64,000 nt of DNA from an uncultured Eubacteriales bacterium (GTDB lineage Bacteria; Bacillota; Clostridia; Oscillospirales; Oscillospiraceae), in assembly GCA_900316745.1 (NCBI GenBank), contig ONEB01000003.1:93616-157615 (forward strand), read 5' to 3'. Below are positions 23,174 through 40,680 of this stretch, piece after piece. Each line of letters begins with the position of its first letter. Positions within the stretch are counted from its first letter, which is position 1. Both the position numbers and the translations under genes were made by a program. Below the pieces are notes generated by a model. The model ran no database searches. It was not told the origin of the DNA and was given only the letters and a program-made list of their open reading frames with translations.

Positions 23174-25150
23174 TTATGAGAGTCGAAGCGCATCAAAGCT
23201 GCTTACCGGCAGATTGCATGTGCCGTTCGTGCAGAGATACCATTGCGTCCCCTGCTCCGGCACGCCATACGCGCTCGTAAACGGCGCGAGCTTATCCAAC
23301 TGCAAAGCGTTCTCTTTTGTTTTCCACAGGATCGCGAGCGCATTTGCAGGATGCTGTTTCAGATAGGTCTGAAGCGCTCCGCCATCCGTTTCGCCGCAGC
23401 AGATCAGCTCGCGGTGCGGAAAAAGCGAGCGCATCATGGCAAGCAGTCCGTACGCGACGCCGAAGCCGTACCGTTCGGCTTGGCCGGCAACGAACGCATG
23501 CTGCGCAAAAGCGGCATCCAGAAAGCGTTTTTCTCCCGTGAGCTCTGCAAGCTCTTGCAGCACCATTGCCGCGCAGCTGTTGCCGGACGGCATCGCTCCG
23601 TCAAACAGTTCTTTGGGTCGGGAGATCAGCAATTCAGCGTCAGATGCGGTCCGGTAAAACCCTCCGCGCTCGTCATCCGCAAAGAGCGTGAGCATCTGAT
23701 CTGCCCGAAACGCCGCCTGCTCCAGATAATCCACCGAGAACGTGCAGCGATAGAGCTCCAGAAGAGCAAGCGCATAGGCAGCGTAATCGTCCAGCTGTCC
23801 CGGCACGGCGCAAGCACCATCGTGCCAGCGCAGATACAGGCGATCATTATCATCCGTGAGAGCCGAACGCAGAAAACGTTCCGCGTCTTTCGCGGCATTC
23901 AAATACCGCATCTCGCGCAGAACAAGCCCTGCACGCGCAAGCGCAAGGATCATCCAGGCATTCCACGAGGTCAGGATCTTATCATCCTTGTGCAGGGCAG
24001 TACGCTCGGCTCGATATGCCCGCAGTCGTTCCAGTCTCGGATCGTCTGCCGCCCAAGCATCGCCTTGCAGCCCGATGCGATTTACGATCCCGGCTGTCAG
24101 AGAATAGGCGATTAAGAACAGTTCGGCGTCTTTTTCGCCGAGAACGGAGATAAGCTCCGCTTCAGTGAAGCGATAGTATTTCCCCTCTTCCCCGTCGCTG
24201 TCCGCATCCTGTGCGCTGTAAAAGCCGCCGTCAGGGTGTGTCATCTCCCGCAGGACATAATCCGCTGTGCGGCGCGCAACGTCTGCATAGCGCATTTCTC
24301 CCGTGCGCTGAAACGCCTCGGTATACGCCAGAAGCAGCAGCGCGTTGTCATAGAGCATTTTTTCAAAATGCGGCTTGAGCCAGCGCTCATCCGTAGAATA
24401 GCGCGCAAAGCCGCCGCCGATGTGATCAAACATCCCGCCGGCTTCCATCGCATTCAGCGTACGGCAAACGAGCTGCATCGCCTCAGGCGTTCCGGTCCGA
24501 TCCGCATAGTCCATCAAAAACAGCAGATTGTGCGCGCTCGGGAACTTCGGAGCGCCGCCAAAGCCGCCCCATTTCGAATCAAACGTACAGCGATACTCCT
24601 GATAAGCGTCGCGCACCAGCTTCTCCGAGGGCGAACCCGGTTTTGGCGCTGCAACACGCCTGAGCGCAGAAGCAAGCTGGTCGCCGTTTCGCAGCAGCCG
24701 CTCCCGGTCGTTCTTCCAAACCTCCGCAAGGTAAGAGAGCGTGTCCATGAGTCCGACTCTTCCGTAAGAGCTGTATTTGGGCAGATAAGTCCCTGCGTGA
24801 AACGGCTTTTGATCCGGCGTCATGAAGATCGTAAGCGGCCAGCCTCCGGTGCCGGTCAACGCCTGACATACCTGCATATACACCGCATCCACGTCCGGGC
24901 GTTCCTCACGGTCGACCTTGATCGACACATACTCGCGATTCAGCAGACGCGCGACCGCTTCATCCTCAAAGGACTCATGCGCCATGACATGGCACCAGTG
25001 GCATGTCGAATAGCCGATCGAGAGAAAGATCGGTTTATCCTCGCGTCTGGCCTTTTCAAAAGCCTCTTCGCCCCACGGATACCAGTCCACGGGATTATGC
25101 TGATGCTGCATCAGATAGGGCGAGTGTGTGTTGGCAAGATGATTGGACAT
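23174..25150 (-). CDS. Thioredoxin-domain DUF255 protein (YyaL family)
   Basis: 658 residues. The N-terminal DUF255 thioredoxin-like domain includes [16 protein letters not shown] and the cysteine motif STCHWCHVM (about 46-54). It is followed by an (alpha/alpha) barrel resembling N-acylglucosamine 2-epimerase/cellobiose-epimerase folds ([19 protein letters not shown]). This is the YyaL/SPATA20 family; the reaction is not known. The ATG at 25150 has GGAGGTG upstream. Same length and architecture as family members. Confidence 0.9.
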
Positions 25151-25183
25151 GTCAGCACCTCCGGGAAGCACGCTTCAAATTCG

Positions 25184-25978
25184 TTATGCAAGATATTTTT
25201 CCCGCAGCGCCGAGATTTCATGCGCGCCGAACTGAAGCTTCTGCTCCAGAAACGCTTCTGTTGAACCGTAATTACGATCGATGGACGCCCACGCGTTGCG
25301 CAAATACCGCTCGCTGGCGGCTTCAAACGCCCGAACCGCAAATTCCAGATCGGGCGAATCGGAATACTGCATCGCTTCCTGCACCACCTGGTCCGTCTCA
25401 GCGGCAAGAAACCCATTCGTGAGCAGATAGTCTTCAAGGATCGTCTCGCGCGTCACACCGAGCGCCTCAAGGATCAGCATCGTCGCAACGCCGACTCGGT
25501 CCTTGCCGGCCGTACAATGATACAAGAGCGCTCCGTCCTTATGGTTTAACACATACCGCAAAAACTGCGCATAATGAGTTGTGCTGTATTCACCCTCTAC
25601 GAGCGGCAGATAAAGCCCTGCCATCCGTTCCGCAGCGTCCTTTCCGGCCCGGATCGCGGCGCGATAATACGGCGGAATCTCATTTCCGGTCTGTTCGCGC
25701 GTGATGCCCGTCATCTGCTCCAGGATCGGACAATGGAGATATGTAACGCCGGGGATCACAGCATCAGGCTTCTCGTTCTGTTCATATTCCGTTCTGAAAT
25801 CCACAACGGTTTTCAACCCGGCGTCTGTGAGCTTTTGCACATCCGTCTGCGTGAGTCGTGAAAGCTCGCCGCTGCGAATGAGCATACCGGGCTGAACGCT
25901 TCTGCCGTCAGCGGTTGGAATTCCGCCAAGGTCTCGGGCGTTCGGAGCGCCGGTGAGTCCTAAATGAATCATTTTCAT
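25184..25978 (-). CDS. Tyrosine/serine phosphatase-like protein (Y_phosphatase3 family)
   Basis: About 264 residues. The catalytic P-loop HCTAGKDRVG (Cys-X5-Arg, about 155-164) and the N-terminal NARDLGG motif are typical of the bacterial lipid/tyrosine phosphatases of the MptpB/IphP type. Substrate may be phosphotyrosine, phosphoserine or phosphoinositide; it cannot be read from the sequence. ATG 25978 (or in-frame starts at 25981 and 25972) overlaps the tatD stop, so it is coupled to tatD. Confidence 0.85.
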   Translation of the reverse strand: MKMIHLGLTGAPNARDLGGIPTADGRSVQPGMLIRSGELSRLTQTDVQKLTDAGLKTVVDFRTEYEQNEKPDAVIPGVTYLHCPILEQMTGITREQTGNEIPPYYRAAIRAGKDAAERMAGLYLPLVEGEYSTTHYAQFLRYVLNHKDGALLYHCTAGKDRVGVATMLILEALGVTRETILEDYLLTNGFLAAETDQVVQEAMQYSDSPDLEFAVRAFEAASERYLRNAWASIDRNYGSTEAFLEQKLQFGAHEISALREKYLA

Positions 25979-26739
25979 CACCCAATCCGAAAGAGTCGTT
26001 TTCCGTTTTCCATCGTCGCTGCCGCGACCGTTTCCACATCCATCCCCTTCTCCCGGGCAACAACAGCCGCGATATAGGGCAGGTTGCGGGAATCATTGCG
26101 CTTACCGCGGTTCGGCACCGGAGAGAGATACGGCGAATCCGTTTCGAGCAGGATGCGCTCCATCGGCACGGAGCGAATCACTTCCAGCGCCTTAACGGCG
26201 TTTTTATAGGTGATCGGCCCATCGAACCCGAGATACCAGCCGCGTTTGATCAGCTCCCTTGCCATCTCGACGCTGCCGGAAAAGCAATGGAATACGCCGC
26301 GCAGCATCGGATAGTCCCGCACAATCTCCAGACAATCCCCATGTGCTTCACGGTCGTGCACAATGACGGGAAGATCCAGCTCCAGAGCCAGCTCAATCTG
26401 CGTGCGGAACATCATCTTCTGCTGATCGATAAAGGTTTTGTCCCAGTAATAGTCAAGCCCGATCTCGCCGATCGCAACGACTCTTTCGTCGGCGGCAAGG
26501 GCGCGGATCTCGCAAAGGCTTTCGTCTGTCCAGCTCTCCGCCTCCTCAGGATGCCAGCCGACTGCGGCATAGATGAAAGGATACCGGTGCGCCAATGCTA
26601 CGGCTCTGCGGCTGCGCTCGGTATTGTCGCCGGGATCCACGATGAGTGTGACGCCGTTTTCTGCCATTGAAGAAAGAACTTCTTCCCGATCGGTATTGAA
26701 TTTGGAACTGTCGTAGTGCGCGTGGGTATCAAAATACAT
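25978..26739 (-). CDS. tatD: TatD family metal-dependent DNase
   Basis: About 253 residues. TIM-barrel amidohydrolase with metal ligands in FDTHAH (3-8), the GEIGLDYY motif (about 93-100), VHDREAHGD, FHCFSGS and the LLETDSPYL motif (about 200-208). TatD proteins are 3'-5' DNases active in repair. The start at 26739 has GAGGAT upstream and comes 10 bases after the ligA stop. Confidence 0.93.
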   Translation of the reverse strand: MYFDTHAHYDSSKFNTDREEVLSSMAENGVTLIVDPGDNTERSRRAVALAHRYPFIYAAVGWHPEEAESWTDESLCEIRALAADERVVAIGEIGLDYYWDKTFIDQQKMMFRTQIELALELDLPVIVHDREAHGDCLEIVRDYPMLRGVFHCFSGSVEMARELIKRGWYLGFDGPITYKNAVKALEVIRSVPMERILLETDSPYLSPVPNRGKRNDSRNLPYIAAVVAREKGMDVETVAAATMENGKRLFRIG

Positions 26740-26749
26740 GGTTGTATCC

Positions 26750-30132
<3,383 letters not shown>

Positions 30133-30227
30133 TTTCCACACTCCTTCAAGCTAGTATTATACTTCCCATTTTGCCGCAATACAAGTAAAATCGTCAGCAC
30201 AAGATCTCGAACCTGAAATGTTTTCCC

Positions 30228-30256
30228 TTGACGAAAGCGGTACAAATGCGTAAAAT
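30228..30256 (+). promoter_or_regulatory. rnpB promoter
   Basis: TTGACG (30228-30233), 17-base spacer, TAAAAT (30251-30256), 8 bases before the RNA 5' end. Confidence 0.75.
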
Positions 30257-30263
30257 AACGATT

Positions 30264-30615
30264 CGAGCGGGTCGAGCAGTCGCGGGCATAAGCCGAAAGG
30301 CTGTGCGTGAGGAAAGTCCGGGCTCCGCAGGGCAAGGATAACGGGTAACACCCGCCAGGGGCGACCCTCGGACAAGTGCAACAGAAAGAAACCGCTCTGC
30401 TGCGAGCAATCGCCGCGGAGTAAGGGTGGAAACGTGCGGTAAGAGCGCACGCGTCGGCTGGAGACAGTTCGATGCTGTAAACTCTATCCGGAGCAACACC
30501 GTGGAGGAACACAAGGTCTGCCCGACCGTTCCGAGGAGGTGGCTTGAGTGCATCGGCAACGGTGCGCCTAGATAGATGACTGCTGATTACAGAACCCGGC
30601 TTACAGACCCGCTCC
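30264..30615 (+). ncRNA. rnpB: RNase P RNA (bacterial class A)
   Basis: Conserved landmarks occur in order: the GAGGAAAGTCCGGGCTC core (CR I region), the ACAGAAA and central AAGGGTGGAAACGTGCGGTAAGAG-like segment, and the 3' ACAGAACCCGGCTTAC closure. Outer helix P1 is formed by GAGCGGGTC (30265-30273) and GACCCGCTC (30606-30614). It is the catalytic RNA that matures tRNA 5' ends together with RnpA. Confidence 0.95.
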
Positions 30616-30620
30616 ATTCA

Positions 30621-30685
30621 GACAAACGATCCGCTTCATCACAGCGCAAAACCGCGCTGCTGAAACGGATCGTTTGTCATTTTCT
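30621..30685 (+). terminator. rnpB terminator
   Basis: GACAAACGATCCG and its exact complement 32 bases later form a 13-base stem with an inner hairpin, followed by a T-rich tail. Confidence 0.75.
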
Positions 30686-30737
30686 CTGTCTCTGCACGAA
30701 TCATGCAAAAGAATGCAAAAACAGCCAAAATATTTGG

Positions 30738-30780
30738 AACCATCGCCAGTGGAATCGCTCTTTCCCCGGCGATGGTTTTA
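30738..30780 (+). other. Stem-loop in the fhs leader
   Basis: AACCATCGCC and GGCGATGGTT form a perfect 10-base stem followed by TTTA. It sits between the rnpB terminator and fhs and could be a second terminator or an attenuator. Confidence 0.5.
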
Positions 30781-30844
30781 TGTTAGAATAGACGCGCAAA
30801 TTCAACAGGAATCCGCCCCTATCACCAAAGGAGATGTACTGTTC

Positions 30845-32521
30845 ATGGAAATTCGTTCCGACATCGAGATCGCGCAGAGCTGCAAGATGCGTCCCATCGG
30901 CGAAATTGCCGAGACCGCCGGGATTGCAGAAACCTATCTGGAGCAATACGGGCGTTACAAGGCAAAGGTCGACTACGCTCTGCTCCGTGATCGTGCAGAT
31001 CGCCCCAACGGCAAGCTGATCCTCGTGACCGCCATTAACCCCACGCCTGCCGGTGAGGGCAAGACGACCACGACCATCGGTCTGGGCGACGCGCTGCGCA
31101 AGCTCAATCAGCGAACCATGATCGCGCTCCGGGAGCCCAGCCTCGGCCCCGTGTTCGGCGTCAAGGGCGGCGCTGCCGGCGGCGGTTACGCGCAGGTCGT
31201 TCCCATGGAGGACATTAACCTCCACTTCACGGGCGATTTCCATGCAATCGGCGCGGCAAACAATCTCCTTGCCGCAATGCTCGACAACCACATCCATCAG
31301 GGCAACGCGCTCGGCATCGATCCGCGCCGGATCACCTGGCGCAGAGCGGTGGATATGAACGACCGTCAGCTGAGAAATATCACGGACGGACTCGGCGGTG
31401 CAGCAAACGGCGTGCCGCGCGAGGACGGTTTTGATATCACGGTGGCCTCCGAGGTCATGGCAGTGCTGTGCCTCGCGAGCGACATCACCGATCTCAAAGC
31501 CCGTCTCGGCCGCATCATCGTCGGCTACACCTACGCCGGAAAGCCGGTCACCGCAGGTGACCTGAAAGCTGCCGGTGCAATGGCAGCGCTTTTGAAAGAC
31601 GCGCTCAAGCCAAACCTCGTGCAAACGCTTGAAGGCACGCCCGCGCTGGTGCACGGCGGTCCTTTTGCAAACATTGCGCACGGCTGCAACAGCGTGACCG
31701 CGACGCGCATGGCGCTCAAGCTCGGCGATTACATCGTCACCGAAGCGGGCTTCGGCGCGGACCTCGGCGCGGAGAAGTTCCTCGACATCAAGTGCCGTCT
31801 CGCCGGTCTGAAGCCTGATGCCGTTGTTATCGTGGCAACCGTTCGCGCGCTGAAGTATCACGGCGGTGTGGAAAAAGCCGATCTGAACGCGGAGAATCTC
31901 ACCGCGCTGGAGGCGGGTCTGCCGAATCTGCTGCAGCATGTGGAAAACATCACGAACGTCTACGGCCTGCCCTGCGTGGTCGCCATCAACCGCTTTCCCA
32001 CTGATACGGAGGCAGAGCTCGCACTTGTGCGTGACCGCTGCGCTGCGCTCGGCGTCAACGTCGCGCTCAGCGAGGTCTGGGGCAAGGGCAGCGAAGGCGG
32101 CATCGAGCTTGCGCAGGAGGTTATGCGTCTGTGCCGGCAGCCGAACGATTTCCGCTTCAGCTATGACACGGAGCGCTCCATCCCCGACAAGCTCAACGCC
32201 ATTGCACAGAAGATCTACCACGCCGACGGCGTTGATCTAATCGGCAAGGCACCGAAGCAGTGCGCAGAGCTCGAAGCGCTGGGCTTTGGGAATCTCCCGA
32301 TCTGTGTTGCCAAAACGCAGTATTCGTTCTCTGACGACGCAGCCAAGCGCGGCGCGCCGAAAGACTTCCGCATTACGGTGCGCAACCTCAAGGTCAGCGC
32401 AGGTGCTGGCTTCATTGTCGCACTCACAGGCGACATCATGACGATGCCCGGCCTCCCGAAATCTCCCGCCGCCGAGCGCATCGACGTGGATGAAAACGGC
32501 GTGATCTCCGGCCTTTTCTGA
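30845..32521 (+). CDS. fhs: Formate-tetrahydrofolate ligase
   Basis: 558 residues. The P-loop-like [14 protein letters not shown] (about 59-72) and the [21 protein letters not shown]-type region identify the family. It makes 10-formyl-THF from formate, ATP and THF, the entry of formate into the folate pool and a step of the Wood-Ljungdahl methyl branch. I start at ATG 30845, about 11 bases after AAAGGAG. fchA follows 4 bases after the stop, and folD overlaps fchA, so fhs-fchA-folD is one operon. Confidence 0.97.
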
Positions 32522-32525
32522 TCAG

Positions 32526-33152
32526 ATGGAAAACGAGAAGTTGATTGCCCTCAGCTGTGAGGAATATTCAGAACGTTTGGCCTCCGCTGCCCCTGTTCCG
32601 GGCGGCGGAGGCACAAGCGCATTGGTTGCCGCTCTCGGCACGTCGCTCGGCTCCATGGTCGGCGCGCTCACGGTCGGAAAGCCGAAGTACGCCGCCGTTG
32701 AGGACGAGATCAAAGCGCTGATGAAGCGCACGGAAACGCTTCGTCAGAAATTACTGGCATGCGTCGATCAGGACGCAGCTGCCTTTGTGCCTCTGGCCGA
32801 GGCATACGCAATTTCAAAAGATGATCCCGCGCGTGATGAGATCATGGAGCGCTGTCTGCGCGATGCAGCGGCCGTCCCGCTGCGCATCCTCGAGCTTTGC
32901 TGCGAGGGCATCGCGCTTCACCGGGAGTTTGCCGCGAAAGGAAGTCTGCTCGCGATCTCCGACGCCGCCACCGGCGTTGCATTCTGCTTAAGCGCGATGT
33001 ACGGCGCGGCAGTCAATGTGAAAGTCAACACCAAAGCCATGAAAGACAGAGCGTATGCCGAACAGCTCAACGAGCGTGTTGACGGTTTGATGGAGCAATA
33101 CCGGCCGATTGCCGATCGTGTCTTTGAAGATGTTTACAGGAGGTTTTGCTGA
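32526..33152 (+). CDS. fchA: Methenyltetrahydrofolate cyclohydrolase (FchA, cyclodeaminase/cyclohydrolase family)
   Basis: 208 residues, all helical FTCD_C/FchA fold with the PVPGGGGTSALVAALG folate-binding segment (about 23-38). In clostridia FchA hydrolyses methenyl-THF to 10-formyl-THF; the related cyclodeaminase activity in histidine degradation is less likely given the neighbours. It sits between fhs and folD, exactly the two enzymes whose products and substrates it connects. Its role is probably essential here because the adjacent FolD lacks the cyclohydrolase residues. Confidence 0.9.
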   Translation: MENEKLIALSCEEYSERLASAAPVPGGGGTSALVAALGTSLGSMVGALTVGKPKYAAVEDEIKALMKRTETLRQKLLACVDQDAAAFVPLAEAYAISKDDPARDEIMERCLRDAAAVPLRILELCCEGIALHREFAAKGSLLAISDAATGVAFCLSAMYGAAVNVKVNTKAMKDRAYAEQLNERVDGLMEQYRPIADRVFEDVYRRFC

Positions 33153-34024
33153 TGAGCGAAATCCTGCGCGGCGCCCCCGCCGCGGCAGCGCTCACGGAGT
33201 CTTTGACAGCGCGTTGCGACCAGCTGAGAGAACGCGGACTGACGCCGACGCTTGCGGTCATTCGCGTCGGTGCGCGCGACGACGATCTGGCGTATGAAAA
33301 GGCAGCCGTGCGGCGGTGCGAACAGATCGGAATTGAAGTGCGCAGATTTCTCCTGCCCGAAGATTGCAGTTCGGAAATGCTCCTGAACACGATCGATACC
33401 GTCAACATTGACGGCTCCATCCATGGCTGTCTGATGTTTCGGCCGCTGAAAAACAGAGCTGCGGAAGCTGCCGCCTGCGATCGGCTCAGCCCGGAAAAGG
33501 ATGTTGACGGCATGACGCTGGCGTCCCTGACGCACGTTTTTTCAGGCTCCGACGGAGGCTTTCCCCCGTGCACTGCCGAGGCATGCGTAAGACTTTTGGA
33601 TCACTATGGGATCAGCCTTGACGGCAAGCGTGTTGTGATTCTCGGACGCAGCCTTGTAATCGGAAAGCCGCTCGCCATGCTGATGCTTTCCCGAAACGCC
33701 ACGGTGACAATGTGTCATTCGCACACTTCAAATATCAAAGAGATCACCCGCCCGGCAGATATCATCGTCGCATGCATGGGCAAAGCTGAGAGCATCGACA
33801 GTTCCTATCTCAGCGAGGGGCAGATCGTTCTCGACGTCGGCATTCATGAGCGCGCGGACGGCTCGCTCTGCGGTGACGTTCGTACGGAGTCGATTGCATC
33901 GGTTGTTGCGGCTTATGCGCCGTCTCCGGGTGGAATCGGCAGCATGACGACCTCCGTTTTGGCAGCCCATGTGGTGGAAGCATGCGAAAAAATTGCTTGC
34001 AATCCAATGGGCAGCGTAGTATAA
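33152..34024 (+). CDS. folD: Methylenetetrahydrofolate dehydrogenase (FolD family), cyclohydrolase site degenerate
   Basis: 290 residues; both FolD domains present, including KDVDGMT (about 116-122), the NAD(P)-binding GRSLVIGKPLAMLML and PSPGGIGSMTT. However, the catalytic lysine (Lys54 in E. coli, Lys56 in human MTHFD1), which lies four residues after the conserved Tyr (Tyr48 here), is Ala52, and the conserved Gln of LVQLPL is Phe96 (LMFRPL). Both are needed for the cyclohydrolase reaction. The protein is therefore predicted to be dehydrogenase only. AGGAGG lies before the ATG, which overlaps the fchA stop. Confidence 0.93.
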   Translation: MSEILRGAPAAAALTESLTARCDQLRERGLTPTLAVIRVGARDDDLAYEKAAVRRCEQIGIEVRRFLLPEDCSSEMLLNTIDTVNIDGSIHGCLMFRPLKNRAAEAAACDRLSPEKDVDGMTLASLTHVFSGSDGGFPPCTAEACVRLLDHYGISLDGKRVVILGRSLVIGKPLAMLMLSRNATVTMCHSHTSNIKEITRPADIIVACMGKAESIDSSYLSEGQIVLDVGIHERADGSLCGDVRTESIASVVAAYAPSPGGIGSMTTSVLAAHVVEACEKIACNPMGSVV

Positions 34025-34054
34025 CTAAATCGACGAAGCAATCGCTTCGCAAGT

Positions 34055-34153
34055 TGGACAGAGTAGGACAGGCGCGTTAAGTGCCGCAGGATGGGAAGTT
34101 GCCTGCGGACGAAGCATTCAACATGCGCGGTGCCTGTGCCGCATCCGCTGCCA
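34055..34153 (+). promoter_or_regulatory. Tetrahydrofolate (THF) riboswitch
   Basis: The leader of folT carries the THF aptamer elements in order: GGACAGAGTAGG, GCGTTAAGTGCC, GGATGGGAAGTTGCC, GGACGAAGC, GCGCGGTGCC and the closing GCATCCGCTGCCA. It senses reduced folates and precedes a folate transporter, the usual target. Confidence 0.92.
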
Positions 34154-34167
34154 CTAAGGAACACCGC

Positions 34168-34203
34168 CTCCTTTCGTGGCAACTGTCACGAAAGGAGTTT
34201 TTT
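34168..34203 (+). terminator. THF-riboswitch expression platform (terminator containing the folT ribosome site)
   Basis: CTCCTTTCGTG pairs with CACGAAAGGAG and is followed by six T directly before the folT ATG. The 3' stem strand contains the ribosome-binding site AAAGGAG, so the same hairpin could both terminate transcription and hide the ribosome site when folate is bound. Confidence 0.85.
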
Positions 34204-34719
34204 ATGAAAAAAAGTCGGTTTACACCGAAAGTCATGGCAATCCTCAGCATTTTACTGGCACTGGAAGTCATCATCGCCAGGTTCGGAACGATCCGTCCCT
34301 CGGAAAGCATCAAGCTGAGTCTGGATTTCATCCCGATCGTGATTGCTGCAATTTTGTATGGCACGGTTCCCGCGGTTGTAATGAGCATTCTGGCCGACAT
34401 CCTCGGAGCCTTTCTTTTCCCGGTCGGCCCGTTCTTTCCGGGCTTTACCGTCACTGCTGCCATGACCGGCCTGATTTACGGACTGCTTCTCAAAAAGAGC
34501 CAGTCCTTTCCCCGGGTGATCAGCGCGGTGCTGCTGCAGCAGATTCTTTGCAGCCTGCTTCTCAACACGTTCTGGCTGCATGTTCTGTATGGTCTTCCCT
34601 ATCTCCCCACCATGGCTGCAAGACTCATTCAGTGCGGCGTGATGGTCGCTTTGCAGCTCGTGCTCATTCCGATTATTTCGCAAACAATCAAAACCATCGA
34701 AAAGAGACTGCCCTCATGA
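34204..34719 (+). CDS. folT: Folate ECF transporter S component
   Basis: 171 residues with about six membrane helices. Contains the ALEVIIARF segment early and the SLDFIPI and GPFFPGFT segments, matching the FolT substrate-binding subunit of energy-coupling-factor transporters. The shared ECF ATPases and T component must be encoded elsewhere. Controlled by the THF riboswitch. The stop overlaps the start of the folC fusion gene. Confidence 0.92.
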   Translation: MKKSRFTPKVMAILSILLALEVIIARFGTIRPSESIKLSLDFIPIVIAAILYGTVPAVVMSILADILGAFLFPVGPFFPGFTVTAAMTGLIYGLLLKKSQSFPRVISAVLLQQILCSLLLNTFWLHVLYGLPYLPTMAARLIQCGVMVALQLVLIPIISQTIKTIEKRLPS

Positions 34720-36551
34720 ATGCAAAAGAAGCAATCGAATATATAGAAGCCTGCACTTGGAGCGCCACCCGGCTCGGACTGGAGCGCACACAGACGCTGC
34801 TGCATGCTCTGGGCGACCCGCAGAAGAAGCTGCGCTTCATACACGTTGCAGGCAGCAACGGCAAAGGCAGCACCTGTGCGATGCTCGCCGCAATCCTCAA
34901 AGCTGCCGGCTACCGCACCGGGCTTTACACCTCACCCTATATCCAAACCTTCTGCGAACGCATTCAAATCGACGGCGAGAATATCTCAGAAACGGATCTC
35001 GCCGCGATCACGGAACGGGTACGAGGCATTGCCGATCGAATGGAGGACCATCCGAGTCAGTTTGAGCTCGTGACCGCGATTGCGATGGAGTATTATGCTG
35101 CAAAGCACTGCGATATTGTCGTGCTTGAGGTCGGCATGGGCGGTGCGCTCGACAGCACAAACGCAATCGACGCTCCGGAGATTGCAGTGATCACAAACAT
35201 CGGTCTGGAGCACACAGAATATCTCGGCTCCACACTCGAAGCGATTGCCGAAACAAAGGGCGGCATCATCAAACCCGGCTGCGATTGTGTGGTCTATCCG
35301 TCAGATCCGGCTGTGCTGCGCACAATTACAAAGCTCTGCAACGACCGTAGCGTTCGCATGCACGCTGCGGATACAGATTCGATCCAGACAGAGCTTGCGT
35401 CGCTTGACGGACAGCAATTCTCATTTCATGAATGGCAGCATCTGCAGCTGCCGCTCCTGGGCGCACATCAGCTGAAAAATGCCGCCGTTGCACTCACAGC
35501 CATCCAGGTGCTGCGCAAGCGCGGCTGGATGATCCCGGATGAAGCAGTCCGGCGCGGCATGCGCGGAACCAAATGGCCCGCACGCATGGAAATCCTACAC
35601 AAGGAGCCGCTGTTTTTATTGGACGGCGGACATAACCCGCAGTGCGCGGAAGCGCTTGCACAGGGTTTAGCAGCTTATCTGCCCGGCCAACAGGTCACGT
35701 TCCTGCTGGGGGTGCTTGCCGATAAGGATTCCGATACGATGCTCGATATCGTTGCTCCCTATGGCGCAACCTATATCTGTCTGACGCCGAATAATCCCCG
35801 TGCGCTCTCTGCCGAGGCATTGGCTGAAAAGCTGCGTGCACGAGGACAGGAAGCCGTCGCAGCTGACAGCGTGGAATCCGGTATCCGCATGGCGTTGGAA
35901 GCAGGACTTCCGGTTGCAGCGTTCGGTTCGCTCTATCTCGCGGGCGAAATCCGCACGGCATTTCCGAACACGATCAAGCGCTATCAGCGCGAGGGCGCAC
36001 TGCGCCGCCGCGCCGCTCTCTCCCCTGCAGCAAGAGCGGAAGCTTCCTTACGTCTGAACGAGAACATTCTCAAATCAACGACATATCAGAATGCAAAAAC
36101 CATTCTTGTATACAACGCGTTTGGCAGCGAGGCGGATCTGTCCACAATGATCTCACAGGCAAAGGCAGACGGCAAGCGCGTATGCTGGCCATGCTGTCTC
36201 AGCAAAACAGAGATGGCTGCATTCACGCCGCAGGACGACGCCGGCTGGATGACAGGAGCATTCGGTATCCGCGAGCCGGATCCGGAGCGCTCCGTGCGTA
36301 TCGAACCGGATGAGATCGATCTTGTGGTCTGCCCGTGCGCCGGATTTGACCGGTTCGGAAACCGCATCGGCATGGGCGCGGGATATTACGACCGGTATCT
36401 GCCGCAGTGCACAAACGCCGAATGCATGCTCGCTGCATTTGAAGCGCAGCGCGCAGCGCATATCTACACCGAGAGCACCGATATCACAATGCATTTAATC
36501 GCAACGGAGGCCGGGGTGTTCCCGGCAGAAACGGAGATGAAACCGCTATGA
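34716..36551 (+). CDS. folC: Fusion of folylpolyglutamate synthase (FolC) and 5-formyltetrahydrofolate cyclo-ligase
   Basis: 611 residues. Residues 1 to about 425 are a complete FolC: ATP loop GSNGKGST (46-53), GMGGALDSTN, ITNIGLEH and the C-terminal DGGHNPQ domain. From about 430 to 611 a complete 5-formyl-THF cyclo-ligase follows: the KRYQREGALRRRAALS start, FDRFGNRIGMGAGYYDRYL (about 543-561) near the ATP site. FolC adds glutamates to retain folate; the cyclo-ligase returns 5-formyl-THF to methenyl-THF. No stop or frameshift separates them. ATGA overlaps join it to folT upstream and the ATPase gene downstream. Confidence 0.92.
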   Translation: MNAKEAIEYIEACTWSATRLGLERTQTLLHALGDPQKKLRFIHVAGSNGKGSTCAMLAAILKAAGYRTGLYTSPYIQTFCERIQIDGENISETDLAAITERVRGIADRMEDHPSQFELVTAIAMEYYAAKHCDIVVLEVGMGGALDSTNAIDAPEIAVITNIGLEHTEYLGSTLEAIAETKGGIIKPGCDCVVYPSDPAVLRTITKLCNDRSVRMHAADTDSIQTELASLDGQQFSFHEWQHLQLPLLGAHQLKNAAVALTAIQVLRKRGWMIPDEAVRRGMRGTKWPARMEILHKEPLFLLDGGHNPQCAEALAQGLAAYLPGQQVTFLLGVLADKDSDTMLDIVAPYGATYICLTPNNPRALSAEALAEKLRARGQEAVAADSVESGIRMALEAGLPVAAFGSLYLAGEIRTAFPNTIKRYQREGALRRRAALSPAARAEASLRLNENILKSTTYQNAKTILVYNAFGSEADLSTMISQAKADGKRVCWPCCLSKTEMAAFTPQDDAGWMTGAFGIREPDPERSVRIEPDEIDLVVCPCAGFDRFGNRIGMGAGYYDRYLPQCTNAECMLAAFEAQRAAHIYTESTDITMHLIATEAGVFPAETEMKPL

Positions 36552-37255
36552 AGCAAATCATCGTTTTGATCGGCAACTATGGTTCCGGAAAGACCGAGAT
36601 TGCCCTGAATCTCGCTGTCAACGCATCCAAAAAGGGGCTCAACACGCTTGTGATCGACCTCGACAAGGTCAACGATTATTTCCGCATGTCCGACCGCGTT
36701 GAGCTTCTGACTGACCGCAACATCAATGTTGTCTCCCCTACCTTTGCAGGCAAGGGCGTAACGCCGAGCAGCATGTCCTCCGCCGTCGCCTCCGCTTTTG
36801 ACGGAGACTGGGACTATGTGGTGTTCGATGTCGGCGGAGACGCTGCAGGCGCGCTCTCCCTCGGGAGATACCATCAGGATTTCGCCGCCCTCCGGCCTGA
36901 GCAGCTGCATGTATATGACATCGTAAACGTCTTTCGCCCCATGTCCGGGACGCCGGACAAGATCCTTGCGCTCAAGGATGAGATGGAGGGGTTTGCGCGG
37001 CTCAAAGTGACCGGGTTTGTGAACAACGCAAATCTTCTCAATTACGCAAGCGCAGATGACCTTCGGCGGGGCTACGATGTCCTGCGCGAGACCTCTGAAA
37101 TGAGCGGCATCCCCGTTGTGCATACAACCGGGCGCAGTGAGTTTCTCGAAGCGTTTCTGGAAGACGGGCGTGACAGTGCGTTTATCGGCGAGCCCGTCGC
37201 GCTCGAGACCTACATGCACCGGAGCTGGGAAGCATTCACGCATCAGGGTTTTTAA
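36548..37255 (+). CDS. P-loop ATPase of unknown function, copy 2 (in the folate operon)
   Basis: 235 residues. Aligns over its whole length with the protein at 9059-9760: GNYGSGKT (about 9-16), DLDKVNDYFR, VVFDVGGDAAG, LGRYHQDF and NNANL are at matching positions. SIMIBI-type P-loop NTPase without the ParA signature lysine. The ATG overlaps the folC-fusion stop by 4 bases and mtnN follows after 11 bases, so it belongs to the THF-riboswitch operon. Function unknown; context suggests a link to one-carbon or methyl metabolism (inference). Confidence 0.8.
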   Translation: MKQIIVLIGNYGSGKTEIALNLAVNASKKGLNTLVIDLDKVNDYFRMSDRVELLTDRNINVVSPTFAGKGVTPSSMSSAVASAFDGDWDYVVFDVGGDAAGALSLGRYHQDFAALRPEQLHVYDIVNVFRPMSGTPDKILALKDEMEGFARLKVTGFVNNANLLNYASADDLRRGYDVLRETSEMSGIPVVHTTGRSEFLEAFLEDGRDSAFIGEPVALETYMHRSWEAFTHQGF

Positions 37256-37266
37256 GGAGAGAATCT

Positions 37267-37968
37267 ATGAAACTCGGAATCATCGGAGCTATGGACTCTG
37301 AAGTAGCTGCGCTTCAAAGCGCGCTCGAAAATGCGAATCGATTTGAATACGCCAAAATGCGGTTCTGTGCCGGAACGCTCTGCGGTCTGGACGCCGTTGT
37401 GGTAAAGTGCGGCATCGGAAAGGTGAACGCCGCCATGTGTGTGCAGATTCTGAAAGATCTGTTTCATGTGACGCATATCATTAACACCGGCGTTGCCGGA
37501 GCGCTCAGCCCGAAACTCAACATCGGTGATATCGTCGTCTCCACCGAGGCGGTGCAGCACGACTTTGATCTCTCCCCGATTGGATTTCAAAAGGCGGAGA
37601 TCCCGCCGTTCGGACTCGCGGCATTCCCCGCCGACCTCGAAATGCAGCGCATCGCATTGCAGGCGGCAAAGGATGTTGATCTTGACATATCCGTGCAGGC
37701 AGGGCGCATCTGCAGCGGAGATCAGTTTATTGCAGGCAACGCGCAGAAACAGCGCATCTTATCCGAGTTCGGCGGGCTTTGCGCCGAAATGGAGGGCGCT
37801 GCAATTGCACAGGCATGCTGCGCAAACGGCCTCCCGTTTGTCATCCTGCGCGCTATCTCCGACCGCGCGGACGACGCCGGCGGCGTTTCTTTCGCTGAAT
37901 TTGAAGCCGCGGCTGCAAAGCACTGCGCAGAAATCGTCCTGCACATCGCAAAGGCGCTTTCGAGATAA
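37267..37968 (+). CDS. mtnN: 5'-methylthioadenosine/S-adenosylhomocysteine nucleosidase
   Basis: 233 residues, PNP-fold nucleosidase. Catalytic Glu12 (GAMDSEV), the EMEGAAIAQ motif (about 172-180) and Asp in RAISDRADD (about 197) are all present. It cleaves adenine from methylthioadenosine and S-adenosylhomocysteine in the methionine/SAM cycle, fitting the folate-methyl neighbourhood. Last gene of the plus-strand operon. Confidence 0.95.
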   Translation: MKLGIIGAMDSEVAALQSALENANRFEYAKMRFCAGTLCGLDAVVVKCGIGKVNAAMCVQILKDLFHVTHIINTGVAGALSPKLNIGDIVVSTEAVQHDFDLSPIGFQKAEIPPFGLAAFPADLEMQRIALQAAKDVDLDISVQAGRICSGDQFIAGNAQKQRILSEFGGLCAEMEGAAIAQACCANGLPFVILRAISDRADDAGGVSFAEFEAAAAKHCAEIVLHIAKALSR

Positions 37969-37977
37969 AAGCATAAT

Positions 37978-38011
37978 AACGACCCGCTTCGGATTACCGG
38001 AGCGGGTCGTT
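37978..38011. terminator. Hairpin between convergent mtnN and the spoIIE-linked gene
   Basis: AACGACCCGCTTCGG pairs with CCGGAGCGGGTCGTT (one G-U pair) around a 4-base loop. T tracts are weak on both sides. Confidence 0.55.
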
Positions 38012-38014
38012 CGC

Positions 38015-38353
38015 TTATATTGCAAAAAACCAGTAGATCAATACGCCGCCTGAAAGAGCGAGCGCAACGCCGGAGAGTGCGAACAGGATACGTGAGACGC
38101 GTTCCGTATCCCTTTCCTGCTCGGTTCTTTCCATCGGTTCGCCTATCTCGACATTCCCGGGGAGCAGAAGCATCTGCGCCTCCTGCAGCACCTCCTGCGC
38201 TGTCACGCCGCGGCTTGCAGCATCGTCCCGGACAATATAGATCACCTTTTCATAGAGCGGATTCGTATCTGACGTGACAACCACAATCCGTCTCGACACT
38301 CCCTGTGCGCAACCGATCTCCGCATCTGAGCGCTGCTTTCGTTCGTTGTTCAC
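38015..38353 (-). CDS. Small tail-anchored protein of unknown function, downstream of spoIIE
   Basis: 112 residues, not recognised. A soluble N-terminal part with RIVVVTSDTNPLYEKVIY and a predicted helix (about 48-65) is followed by one hydrophobic C-terminal helix (about 90-110, ILFALSGVALALSGGVLIYWFF), so it looks tail-anchored with the bulk in the cytoplasm. The start overlaps the spoIIE stop by 4 bases, which implies co-expression during sporulation. No metal or nucleotide motif is seen. Confidence 0.7.
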   Translation of the reverse strand: MNNERKQRSDAEIGCAQGVSRRIVVVTSDTNPLYEKVIYIVRDDAASRGVTAQEVLQEAQMLLLPGNVEIGEPMERTEQERDTERVSRILFALSGVALALSGGVLIYWFFAI

Positions 38354-40680
38354 TGCCGCACCTCCACTTTTACGGCGAGCGCCGTCATATCATCATTTCT
38401 GCCGTATTCCCGCACAGCCGAGCGGATCACGCCGCCTGCAAGCGTTTTCATGTCCTCGGCGGTCGTCTTTTCCAGAAGCTTCTTCAGCCAGATATCCTTC
38501 CCGTCCGACACAACGCCATCGCTTGCGATCACGGCAATGCTCCCGGGCTTCAGATGCATGTGCATCACATCCGGCGTTTTCCCGGCCTCATATTTGAGCC
38601 CAGCCGCGAAGGACTTGCACTTGATTTTGCGGATCACACCGCCGGTTTTTACATACGACGGCGCAGCGCCGTATTTATAAAAGCAGGCGTCACCGGTAAA
38701 GAGATCAATGCACATGAGATCGACTGTTGCGTAGCCCCAGTTTTCCTCATCCCGCGCCAGCGCGGTGGAATTTAAGAGCTTCATGGCTGCCGAGGGAGAA
38801 ACGCCTGCACGGAGGAAGCGCTCCAGAATTCGAATCGCGCTGATGCTGCCGTCCGCCGCCTCCGCGCCCGTGCCCATGCCGTCAGACAAAATGACGCAGA
38901 GATGACCGGAATCGGTCTTGAAATACGTGCCGCGATCTCCTGAGACAGATTCCCCGTGCTTTCTTACGGCGGCGATCCCCACCGACGCGGAAAGGGGCTC
39001 CGCCTCCAGCAGAATCAGGCTGTCGTCCTTGACCTGACGCTCCGGAATGCAGAGACGGACTCCCAGAACCGCCGACACGCCGTCAAGAAACTCCGGCAAA
39101 TCAATCACTGAGCCAAGCGCCTTGCTCTCGATCGCCGCGTGAAGCCTTCCCCGTTCATCGCGAAACACTGCCGCATCCGCTTCGATGCCGAACGTGCGCA
39201 GATAGCGGATGAGTCTTCGCTCGGAGAGCGGATCAGCACCGTAAACGCTGTCCAGCGCTCTCGCCGAGTCCGCCAAAACCTCCGAAAAATCTCGATACTG
39301 CTCCAGCAGGAGCGAGCGCTCTTCCTGCATCATCTGCTTCATACGTCTGCGATAGGCGCGCAGGCGAAGCTCCCCGTTCACGACCTCCGTAAACTCATGG
39401 ATAGAGACACAGCGCTCGCGGAAGTATTTCGGAAAGTCGCTGACCTCCAGTCTGCCGCGCTGCTGCATTTTCACAGACGCATCGTTCATGGCATTGAGCG
39501 TTTCTCCGCCTGAGGAGATCCAGCAGACCTCCCGGAGCGCACAGTGCAGACAGACACGATCGGAAGTCCGGTCAAATACCTTTGCAATATCATTGTCGTT
39601 CTCTGCCAAAACAGCAGCCTCCTGCGCCACATCGTACAGCGTGCGATAGGCGCGCGACATTCCGCCCAGGCGTCCCGCGACCAGATGCCGCAGTCCGGAT
39701 TCACCCCGTCCGGCCTGCAGCGGCTGCACGAACGCTCCGACAGAAACGATCAGGCTGCCCGGAAGCAGGAGAAACACCATGCACGCTCCTGCCCCCTCCA
39801 TCATGGCAAAGCTGGTGAGCGCCGGCCGGGACAGAACCAGGACCGTCATCACATACGCAAGCAGCCCGATCCCGCAGAAGATCGGTTTTCGATGTTTGGA
39901 AAAGAGTCCTGCCGCGAGACCTGTCACAGGATAGATGACAGAAAAATAAGCGCTTCCCAGAGAAATGTCCATCGCAAGCCCCAGCACAACGCCGCTTGTC
40001 GCACCGGTGAGAGGTCCCCCGTTTGAGCAGATGACCAGCAGAGCCAGCACCGCAACGCAGCGTCCGAGAGAGAGCTCTCCGAAGATGACAAAGCCGGAGA
40101 TTCCCATCATCAGGCAGCTCAGAAGATATACAGTAGAGACGCTGCGGCACATCGCGCCGTTCGCCGTGCGCACCTCCCGCAAATCCATAGCGTCCTGAAA
40201 CGCAAAAGCCGACGCTCCGCACAAAAAGAGCTGGAAAACGACGCGCAGGATGATCAGCACAGAGAAGCCGCCGGTCATCGCCGCAATCGACACACGCGTA
40301 AGTCCGAATGTCACGGTTGAAATCACGGCAGGCGCCCACCTTGTGTAGAGCCAGGCGCGCCGCCGCAAAAAATAGCATGCGGCAAAAATGAGCGAGCACC
40401 CTGCCGCCATCTGTGTGCCGATTGTGAAGCCGAACGCAGCATAATATCCGGCTGAAGCGCCGAGAAAGCACATCAGGCCGCCGCTGCCATACCCCAGCGT
40501 TGCGAGCATTGCCGCCGCAAACGGCGCGCAGCTGTTCCCGAGCTTTGCCGCCGCAAGAACGAGCCCCAACAGGAAACACACCGTAAGCTCCGTCCATTTC
40601 GACGCATGCAGGACCTGCGCCCACTGCTCCGACATTGTATGCAGCGGCTCTTTGCGCTCTACAACCGATTTGACATCCAT
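38350..40680 (-). CDS. spoIIE: Stage II sporulation protein E (membrane PP2C phosphatase)
   Basis: 776 residues. The N-terminal third holds about ten membrane helices (to about 320), a central regulatory region follows, and the C-terminal PP2C domain (about 560-776) has the metal-binding SDGMGTG and later ASDGVVSDG and RNDDMTALAV motifs. SpoIIE sits at the asymmetric septum and dephosphorylates SpoIIAA to free sigma-F; spoIIAA, spoIIAB and sigF are in this window at 10.1-11.6 kb. GGCGGAGGGG precedes the ATG. Confidence 0.95.
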   Translation of the reverse strand: MDVKSVVERKEPLHTMSEQWAQVLHASKWTELTVCFLLGLVLAAAKLGNSCAPFAAAMLATLGYGSGGLMCFLGASAGYYAAFGFTIGTQMAAGCSLIFAACYFLRRRAWLYTRWAPAVISTVTFGLTRVSIAAMTGGFSVLIILRVVFQLFLCGASAFAFQDAMDLREVRTANGAMCRSVSTVYLLSCLMMGISGFVIFGELSLGRCVAVLALLVICSNGGPLTGATSGVVLGLAMDISLGSAYFSVIYPVTGLAAGLFSKHRKPIFCGIGLLAYVMTVLVLSRPALTSFAMMEGAGACMVFLLLPGSLIVSVGAFVQPLQAGRGESGLRHLVAGRLGGMSRAYRTLYDVAQEAAVLAENDNDIAKVFDRTSDRVCLHCALREVCWISSGGETLNAMNDASVKMQQRGRLEVSDFPKYFRERCVSIHEFTEVVNGELRLRAYRRRMKQMMQEERSLLLEQYRDFSEVLADSARALDSVYGADPLSERRLIRYLRTFGIEADAAVFRDERGRLHAAIESKALGSVIDLPEFLDGVSAVLGVRLCIPERQVKDDSLILLEAEPLSASVGIAAVRKHGESVSGDRGTYFKTDSGHLCVILSDGMGTGAEAADGSISAIRILERFLRAGVSPSAAMKLLNSTALARDEENWGYATVDLMCIDLFTGDACFYKYGAAPSYVKTGGVIRKIKCKSFAAGLKYEAGKTPDVMHMHLKPGSIAVIASDGVVSDGKDIWLKKLLEKTTAEDMKTLAGGVIRSAVREYGRNDDMTALAVKVEVRQ

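Follow-up and report, generated by a model that had tools for sequence, protein, structure and literature searches.

FolD is normally bifunctional and catalyzes two consecutive reactions, as methylene-THF dehydrogenase and as methenyl-THF cyclohydrolase. In the window, i.e., the whole 64,000-nucleotide stretch of DNA analyzed here from an uncultured Eubacteriales bacterium, folD directly follows a gene for a separate cyclohydrolase, fchA, and its product carries other residues at two catalytic positions. This raises the question of which reactions this FolD would still catalyze. Judging from its sequence and from the comparisons below, it is very probably a methylene-THF dehydrogenase without cyclohydrolase activity, with FchA supplying the other step. 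The features of the locus are as follows.

30845-32521, forward strand: fhs, formate-THF ligase (PF01268; PRK13505, 943 bits), first gene of the run, inferred start codon
32526-33152, forward strand: fchA, methenyl-THF cyclohydrolase, 208 aa (PF04961, 191 bits; NF045657, 168 bits, below the cut-off of 275)
33152-34024, forward strand: folD, intact 290-aa ORF (PF00763, 94.2 bits, cut-off 32.8; PF02882, 174.5 bits, cut-off 27)
33284-33286, forward strand: Asp45 codon, position of human MTHFD1 Ser49
33293-33295, forward strand: Tyr48 codon, retained folate-binding Tyr of YxxxK
33305-33307, forward strand: Ala52 codon, replacing the catalytic Lys
33437-33439, forward strand: Phe96 codon, replacing the catalytic Gln
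33506-33508, forward strand: Asp119 codon, retained folate-binding Asp of KDVDG
34057-34152, forward strand: THF riboswitch RF01831 between folD and folT (85.3 bits, cut-off 36)
34204-34719, forward strand: folT-like ECF transporter S component (TIGR04518, 123 bits, cut-off 60), inferred start codon
34719-36551, forward strand: FolC-MTHFS fusion (folylpolyglutamate synthase and 5-formyl-THF cyclo-ligase), 610 aa (TIGR01499, 373 bits; TIGR02727, 143 bits)

The fchA product consists of a single FTCD_C domain, and its gene adjoins fhs. The NF045657 cut-off of 275 bits is reached by none of the 293 class genomes and none of the 398 phylum genomes surveyed here. An earlier account of this DNA, referred to below as the sequence-only reading, had named the gene overlapping folD fchA, and the PF04961 match bears this out. 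The TGA of fchA and the ATG of folD overlap by one base, 33152 (TGATG), and AGGAGG precedes folD, which suggests that the translation of the two genes is coupled. At Rfam gathering scores, the THF riboswitch before folT is the sole riboswitch within positions 24000-40000 of the window, and none was found before fhs. Directly upstream of fhs lies the RNase P RNA (class A, 30264-30619); an ORF over it on the opposite strand (30129-30617) is probably spurious.

Both Pfam domains of FolD exceed their gathering scores in the window protein. In the phmmer alignment with human MTHFD1 (1a4i), Tyr52 and Lys56 correspond to Tyr48 and Ala52 of the window FolD, and Gln100 of the VQLPL motif corresponds to Phe96 (LMFRPL). 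In a MAFFT alignment with E. coli FolD, the Tyr, Lys, Gln, and Asp positions are Y, A, F, and D in the window FolD, Lys54 of E. coli being the counterpart of Ala52. Thus, the two replacements claimed by the sequence-only reading, of the catalytic Lys by Ala52 and of the Gln of LVQLPL by Phe96, are upheld by the alignment with FolDs of known function that it had proposed. Its statement that KDVDG and the NAD(P)-binding region are intact also holds, since Asp119 is kept and GRSLVIGKP (GRSxVxGKP) is present; the Tyr and a PGGxGSMT-like motif are retained as well. Lys50, which it had named as the residue that might take the catalytic position instead, is ruled out as a catalytic or relocated Lys, because it sits at Tyr+2 rather than Tyr+4. 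Many canonical FolDs likewise have a basic residue at Tyr+2 (Arg in 43% of 196 canonical rows), and the paralogue of the same genome has Arg there.

The altered enzymes share further residues. The position equivalent to Ser49 is Ser in 97% of the 196 canonical rows, and Asp, as in the window FolD, in 76% of 123 rows of what is here labeled the F-type, i.e., FolDs lacking both the Lys and the Gln. Other common F-type residues in these 123 rows, besides this Asp at Tyr-3, are Glu at Tyr+1 (78%) and Arg after the Gln position (73%), and the dehydrogenase motifs are largely retained. Against the NCBIfam models of bifunctional FolD, the window protein scores 239 bits at best, with a cut-off of 421, and it stays below the cut-off of all of the best 25 of the 30 families listed. 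The residue losses are not due to chance, as every one of the 120 FolD rows read from genomes without fchA has both the Lys and the Gln.

The source genome (G000; 2.44 Mb, 92.5% complete, 3.5% contamination) contains a second run on contig C29 (L003, 695-7488), which comprises fhs, fchA, folD, a formate/nitrite channel, a THF riboswitch, folT, and FolC-MTHFS. The FolD encoded there also has Ala and Phe at the two positions; it is 52–53% identical to the window FolD and is its closest neighbor on the trees (96/91 in a 68-row tree and 99/93 in a 49-row tree). Two fchA genes were found beside folDs, one per folD. A search for a Lys-bearing FolD elsewhere in the genome found only this Ala/Phe paralogue, and an intact copy may have escaped it, as the assembly is only 92.5% complete. 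In both operons, FolC-MTHFS is a fusion of 597–610 aa (window 34719-36551; L003 695-2488) and the THF riboswitch lies ahead of folT, not fhs (window 34057-34152; L003 3059-3158). The genome also encodes a divergent FTCD_C protein (L007, 1411-2061) adjoining a threonine-aldolase-like gene, which was named by eye. This second Lys-less FolD, the change of Ser to Asp45, and the class-wide pattern described next were absent from the sequence-only reading.

The class sample comprised 293 genomes, with a FolD match in 279 and an FchA match in 110. Presence of FchA denotes an NF045657 match with an E value of 0.001 or better, a threshold that a very divergent FchA would escape; G102 (E 1.7e-10) was counted as fchA-positive. 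FolD was read from 228 genomes, namely all 108 fchA-positive genomes with a FolD match (G071 and G155 have none) and 120 of the 171 fchA-negative ones, which were all those with weak scores, those of the best-scoring loci listed, and otherwise about one per genus. Among the genomes read, a Lys-less FolD is present in 107 of the 108 with fchA and in 0 of the 120 without it (Fisher p ~7e-66, ignoring relatedness). The sequence-only reading had suggested surveying Clostridia for co-occurrence of the substitutions with an adjacent fchA; in this sample the Lys-less state goes with fchA whether adjacent or not. In the 111 rows from fchA-positive genomes, the Lys position is occupied by A (45), I (34), Q (10), L (9), V (9), M (1), and K (2), one row being cut there by a stop codon, and the Gln position by F (77), Q (15), L (10), and M (9). 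The Tyr is kept in 110 of these rows, the other being the stop-cut row, and the Asp is likewise kept in 110. A weak second FolD match of G141 (L146) has no ORF and is thus not a row.

Eleven families of mixed state were chosen by eye, with four of their fchA-negative genomes left unread, and the altered FolD coincides with fchA in 10 of them. The exception is f23, with G048, the sole fchA-positive class genome that has only an intact FolD. Its fchA starts 17 bases from the contig end, so a partner may have been lost from the assembly. G003 has an intact FolD plus an I/F FolD (Ile in place of the Lys, Phe in place of the Gln) that adjoins fchA. Among near relatives of the window genome, a FolD match was found in 36 of 40. 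Leaving out the window genome itself, the loci listed number 29. Of the 16 with YKQD at the four positions, 4 belong to the window's own family and 12 to other families of the order, G103 recurring among the latter. The other 13 have YAFD, YALD, or YILD, and all come from the window's family or genus. Within the 3-kb loci to which the count is confined, fchA or fhs accompanies 11 of these 13 altered FolDs, and fchA accompanies 8.

Adjacency to fchA is not required for the altered state. Of 110 FolD places in fchA-positive class genomes, 61 lie within 2 kb of fchA, 15 lie farther away on the same contig (2.8 kb to 1.6 Mb), and 34 lie on another contig, where contig breaks may conceal linkage. 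All 15 distant FolDs on the same contig are altered, as are 47 of the 49 unlinked ones in total; the remaining two are the FolD of G048 and the intact copy of G003, and one of the 47 belongs to G181, whose canonical copy is stop-cut. With 47 altered FolDs outside the 2-kb range, operon linkage alone is insufficient, and the co-occurrence goes beyond an operon effect.

In a FastTree of all rows, built without the two trait columns, a single change separates the Lys rows from the non-Lys rows. The best tree of a more careful 68-row set has three such changes. One clade (100/97) contains 44 F/L/M-type rows out of the 50 non-Lys rows; the K-to-Q clade of family f38 (100/100) is placed beside a Lys row with 83/75; and G291 (V/Q) lies outside the large clade, beside Lys rows, with 81/44. 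In both the f38 clade and G291, folD is far from fchA. The placement of G145 (I/Q, Asp to Glu) is less sure. The Lys rows form one side of a branch in 0 of 200 bootstrap trees. The well-supported (starred) branches, in turn, force one change only, and few independent events may therefore underlie the co-occurrence. In the 49-row tree, the f38 clade groups with other altered rows (90/94), and more changes are needed, among seven labels. The Lys was likely lost more than once.

The window FolD is nested deep in the large altered clade, and so it inherited its altered state from an old FchA-associated clade. The sequence-only reading had suggested that a bifunctional enzyme became a dehydrogenase once FchA took over the other step. 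The functional part of this claim is well supported by the survey (107/108 vs. 0/120) and by the I/F enzyme of A. woodii discussed below, which is reported as monofunctional. The historical part is half right, as the gene did not change on the arrival of its own neighbor but sits in an old clade of altered FolDs, where FchA may have come before or after the loss. Two genomes are consistent with the split pair having replaced the intact enzyme, although neither proves it. In G181 (Alkaliphilus transvaalensis; L392/L466), a canonical FolD is interrupted by an in-frame TAA, and the genome also has an intact I/F FolD and fchA. G563 (L394) has two FolDs clustered as FolD-FchA-FolD, one of them A/F and the other with Lys and Gln but with Ser for the catalytic Tyr.

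Outside the class, where the pattern weakens, a phylum sample comprised 398 genomes, with an FchA match in 230 and a FolD match in 391. The 113 genomes read were not a random draw: they were chosen because they had fchA or a weak FolD score, or belonged to the 30 best-scoring loci. G397 was dropped as a fragment, and eight genomes with FchA matches of E 6e-10 to 4e-5 were counted as fchA-negative, of which only G317 was read. The 73 fchA-positive genomes read comprise 47 with altered FolDs only, 2 with both kinds, and 24 with intact FolDs only. The last group rules out a strict phylum-wide rule that fchA means an altered FolD, and it indicates that fchA does not force the loss. FolDs with Gln changed to Glu and the Lys kept were read only in fchA-positive genomes (18/18). 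In the 49-row tree, four of five such rows form a clade (100/98) next to the F-type, with a joint clade at 91/89. Many of these FolDs (L269-L275, L289, L290, L293, and others) lie near fchA by coordinates.

The 40 fchA-negative phylum genomes read comprise 26 with intact FolDs only, 12 with an intact and an altered FolD, and 2 with altered FolDs only. In the 12 with two forms, the altered FolD has Lys changed to Gln, Ile, or Ala and the Asp of KDVDG changed to Glu. Six of them have tandem FolD pairs (G317, G384, G411, G602, G635, and G650), which adjoin a putative xseA, named by eye, in all but G411. Each of the tandem pairs L376-L381 combines an intact FolD with one in which Gln replaces the Lys and Glu replaces the KDVDG Asp, while the Gln position holds Gln or His. 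Of the two genomes with an altered FolD only, G574 has it next to fhs on a contig of 4.6 kb, and G438, which is 99% complete, has it ahead of a glycine-cleavage gene cluster named by eye. Altogether, another cyclohydrolase candidate is present in 168 of the 170 read genomes with a Lys- or Gln-less FolD (107 + 49 + 12). A tentative reading, plausible if somewhat doubtful, is that FolD has been split by several routes: loss of the Lys with FchA, Gln-to-Glu with FchA, and duplication of FolD without FchA, where each copy may take one of the two reactions, the two perhaps forming a heterodimer. A wider scan of contigs for FolD gave 80 loci, 72 with Lys and Gln, 7 altered, and one stop-cut; five of these loci are Clostridium-like (59–67% identity to the query), three being K-to-Q with the Gln kept, one Q/L, and one V/F.

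The fate of an enzyme without these residues may be judged from mutants and from a characterized relative. Human MTHFD1 mutants at Lys56 lose cyclohydrolase activity, which the sequence-only reading had called established for Lys56 substitutions. This is disputed by the mutants of B. mori MTHFD, K53A and Q97A, which, according to PMC6443876, retain cyclohydrolase activity (kcat/Km 0.097 and 0.22 vs. 0.13 for the wild type) and dehydrogenase activity too. A simulation of MTHFD2 argues that neither Lys88 nor Gln132 can be the base, leaving room for some role of Lys88 (PMC9173628). For Leishmania DHCH, PMC3368264 describes Lys56 and Gln100 as acting jointly in the dehydrogenase reaction and Lys56 as a possible proton carrier in the cyclohydrolase reaction. 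The B. mori mutants and the MTHFD2 simulation indicate that loss of the Lys and Gln need not by itself abolish activity. The dehydrogenase-only reading is carried more by the genomic pattern and by A. woodii than by the mutants.

For A. woodii, folD and fchA have been located at 1083442-1084347 and 1082745-1083404 of NC_016894.1 (PMC6925170). Exactly the same two intervals in contig C1 of G079 are complete ATG-to-stop ORFs, so that G079 is presumably A. woodii. In the FolD of G079, Ile replaces the Lys and Phe the Gln, with the Tyr and Asp kept. The A. woodii enzyme is reported to be monofunctional, an NAD-dependent methylene-THF dehydrogenase (Ragsdale and Ljungdahl 1984, cited in PMC9124964); the latter, a review, also describes the C. 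formicoaceticum protein as monofunctional and that of M. thermoacetica as bifunctional. The window FolD is thus of a type with a member that is reported to be a dehydrogenase only.

Three other explanations were weighed against this background. The window FolD might still be bifunctional, with a remodeled site (Asp45, Glu49, and Arg97) opening the ring and FchA being only extra capacity. The cyclohydrolase activity kept by B. mori K53A and Q97A (PMC6443876) would agree with this, as would the F-type's own common residues at Tyr-3, at Tyr+1, and after the Gln position. Nevertheless, it is improbable, given that the altered state occurs in the class sample only where fchA was found (0/120 fchA-negative genomes read) and that monofunctionality is reported for the A. 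woodii FolD, which is of this type (PMC9124964). The residue changes might instead be functionally meaningless, one altered FolD clade simply traveling with fchA. This would account for the gathering of most Lys-less FolDs in one clade (100/97, 44 of 50 non-Lys rows), for the one change needed by the all-row FastTree and forced by the starred branches, and for the 61 of 110 FolDs within 2 kb of fchA. Such hitch-hiking is quite improbable, however, as altered FolDs are separated from fchA in 47 cases and still absent from all 120 fchA-negative genomes read. The best 68-row tree also places the f38 K-to-Q clade (83/75) and G291 (81/44) apart from the large clade, although the 49-row tree differs for the K-to-Q clade (90/94), and the Gln-to-Glu form is confined to fchA-positive genomes (18/18). 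The reported monofunctionality of the A. woodii type (PMC9124964) argues against it as well.

A degenerate FolD, inactive or serving as a regulatory partner, would be consistent with three changed active-site positions and with the identity of only 52–53% between the window copy and its paralogue. This is highly improbable, since the Tyr, KDVDG, GRSxVxGKP, and the PGGxGSMT-like motif are kept, the only two FolDs found in the genome both lie within fhs-fchA operons, and the protein is of the same type as the A. woodii dehydrogenase. For the favored dehydrogenase without cyclohydrolase activity, Tyr48 and Asp119 would hold the folate and the Rossmann domain would bind NAD(P), so that hydride transfer between methylene- and methenyl-THF would continue. 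The Lys/Gln pair supporting ring opening is absent, with Ala52 and Phe96 in its place and Asp45 for the conserved Ser. Methenyl-THF would be passed to FchA, encoded by the overlapping upstream gene and interconverting it with 10-formyl-THF, which Fhs would connect to formate. The activity, the cofactor, and the direction of flux are predictions from the sequence.

The split FolD/FchA arrangement is already known from A. woodii, and the functional reading is known biochemistry; the useful part is the systematic pattern of residues and fchA. In the open-access literature on monofunctional FolD/FchA, acetogen FolD, and Lys56/Gln100, as far as its searchable text goes, no statement was found on residue changes in bacterial FolD or their match with fchA; this is weak evidence of novelty, most subscription papers lying outside that scope. 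Current labels differ from the reading given here. The best 25 of the 30 NCBIfam families listed for the window protein all say bifunctional, and acetogen genome papers also call folD beside fchA bifunctional (PMC12003927 and PMC10103890). A check of the two residues together with fchA presence would put one-carbon models right for many Clostridia and acetogens, and it would help to pick FolDs for synthetic formate pathways. Moreover, the altered lineages are natural variants for probing the roles of the Lys and Gln in the active site common to both reactions, a point on which mutants disagree.

Compared with the bifunctional E. coli FolD and the DC domain of human MTHFD1, the window FolD aligns at the folate-site Tyr and Asp and in the Rossmann motifs, whereas their Lys and Gln are Ala and Phe in the window FolD, which is 31% identical to E. 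coli FolD. Yeast MTD1 (1edz) is a FolD homologue and a monofunctional NAD-dependent dehydrogenase, going by titles in the references of PMC11064299. It is very distant from the window FolD, with 28 bits over residues 75-202 only. The FolD of C. perfringens, a species not among the 80 loci of the wider contig scan, is reportedly monofunctional. A separate FolD dehydrogenase and FchA cyclohydrolase with Fhs are named for this species in the title of Aluri et al. 2016 (in PMC7219735), a case that points the same way as the dehydrogenase-only reading. The FolDs of the window and of A. woodii are 31% identical, and rnfC2-metVF follows folD in A. woodii (PMC6925170), whereas the THF riboswitch, folT, and folC-MTHFS follow it in the window. 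Yet both have a residue other than Lys at Tyr+4 and Phe at the Gln position, share the order fhs-fchA-folD, and lie on the same side of the all-row FastTree, on which this tree likeness rests, G079 not being a row of the smaller careful trees. The window locus thus shows the A. woodii-type traits: the Lys and Gln both replaced, a separate FchA, and a place on the same side of the tree.
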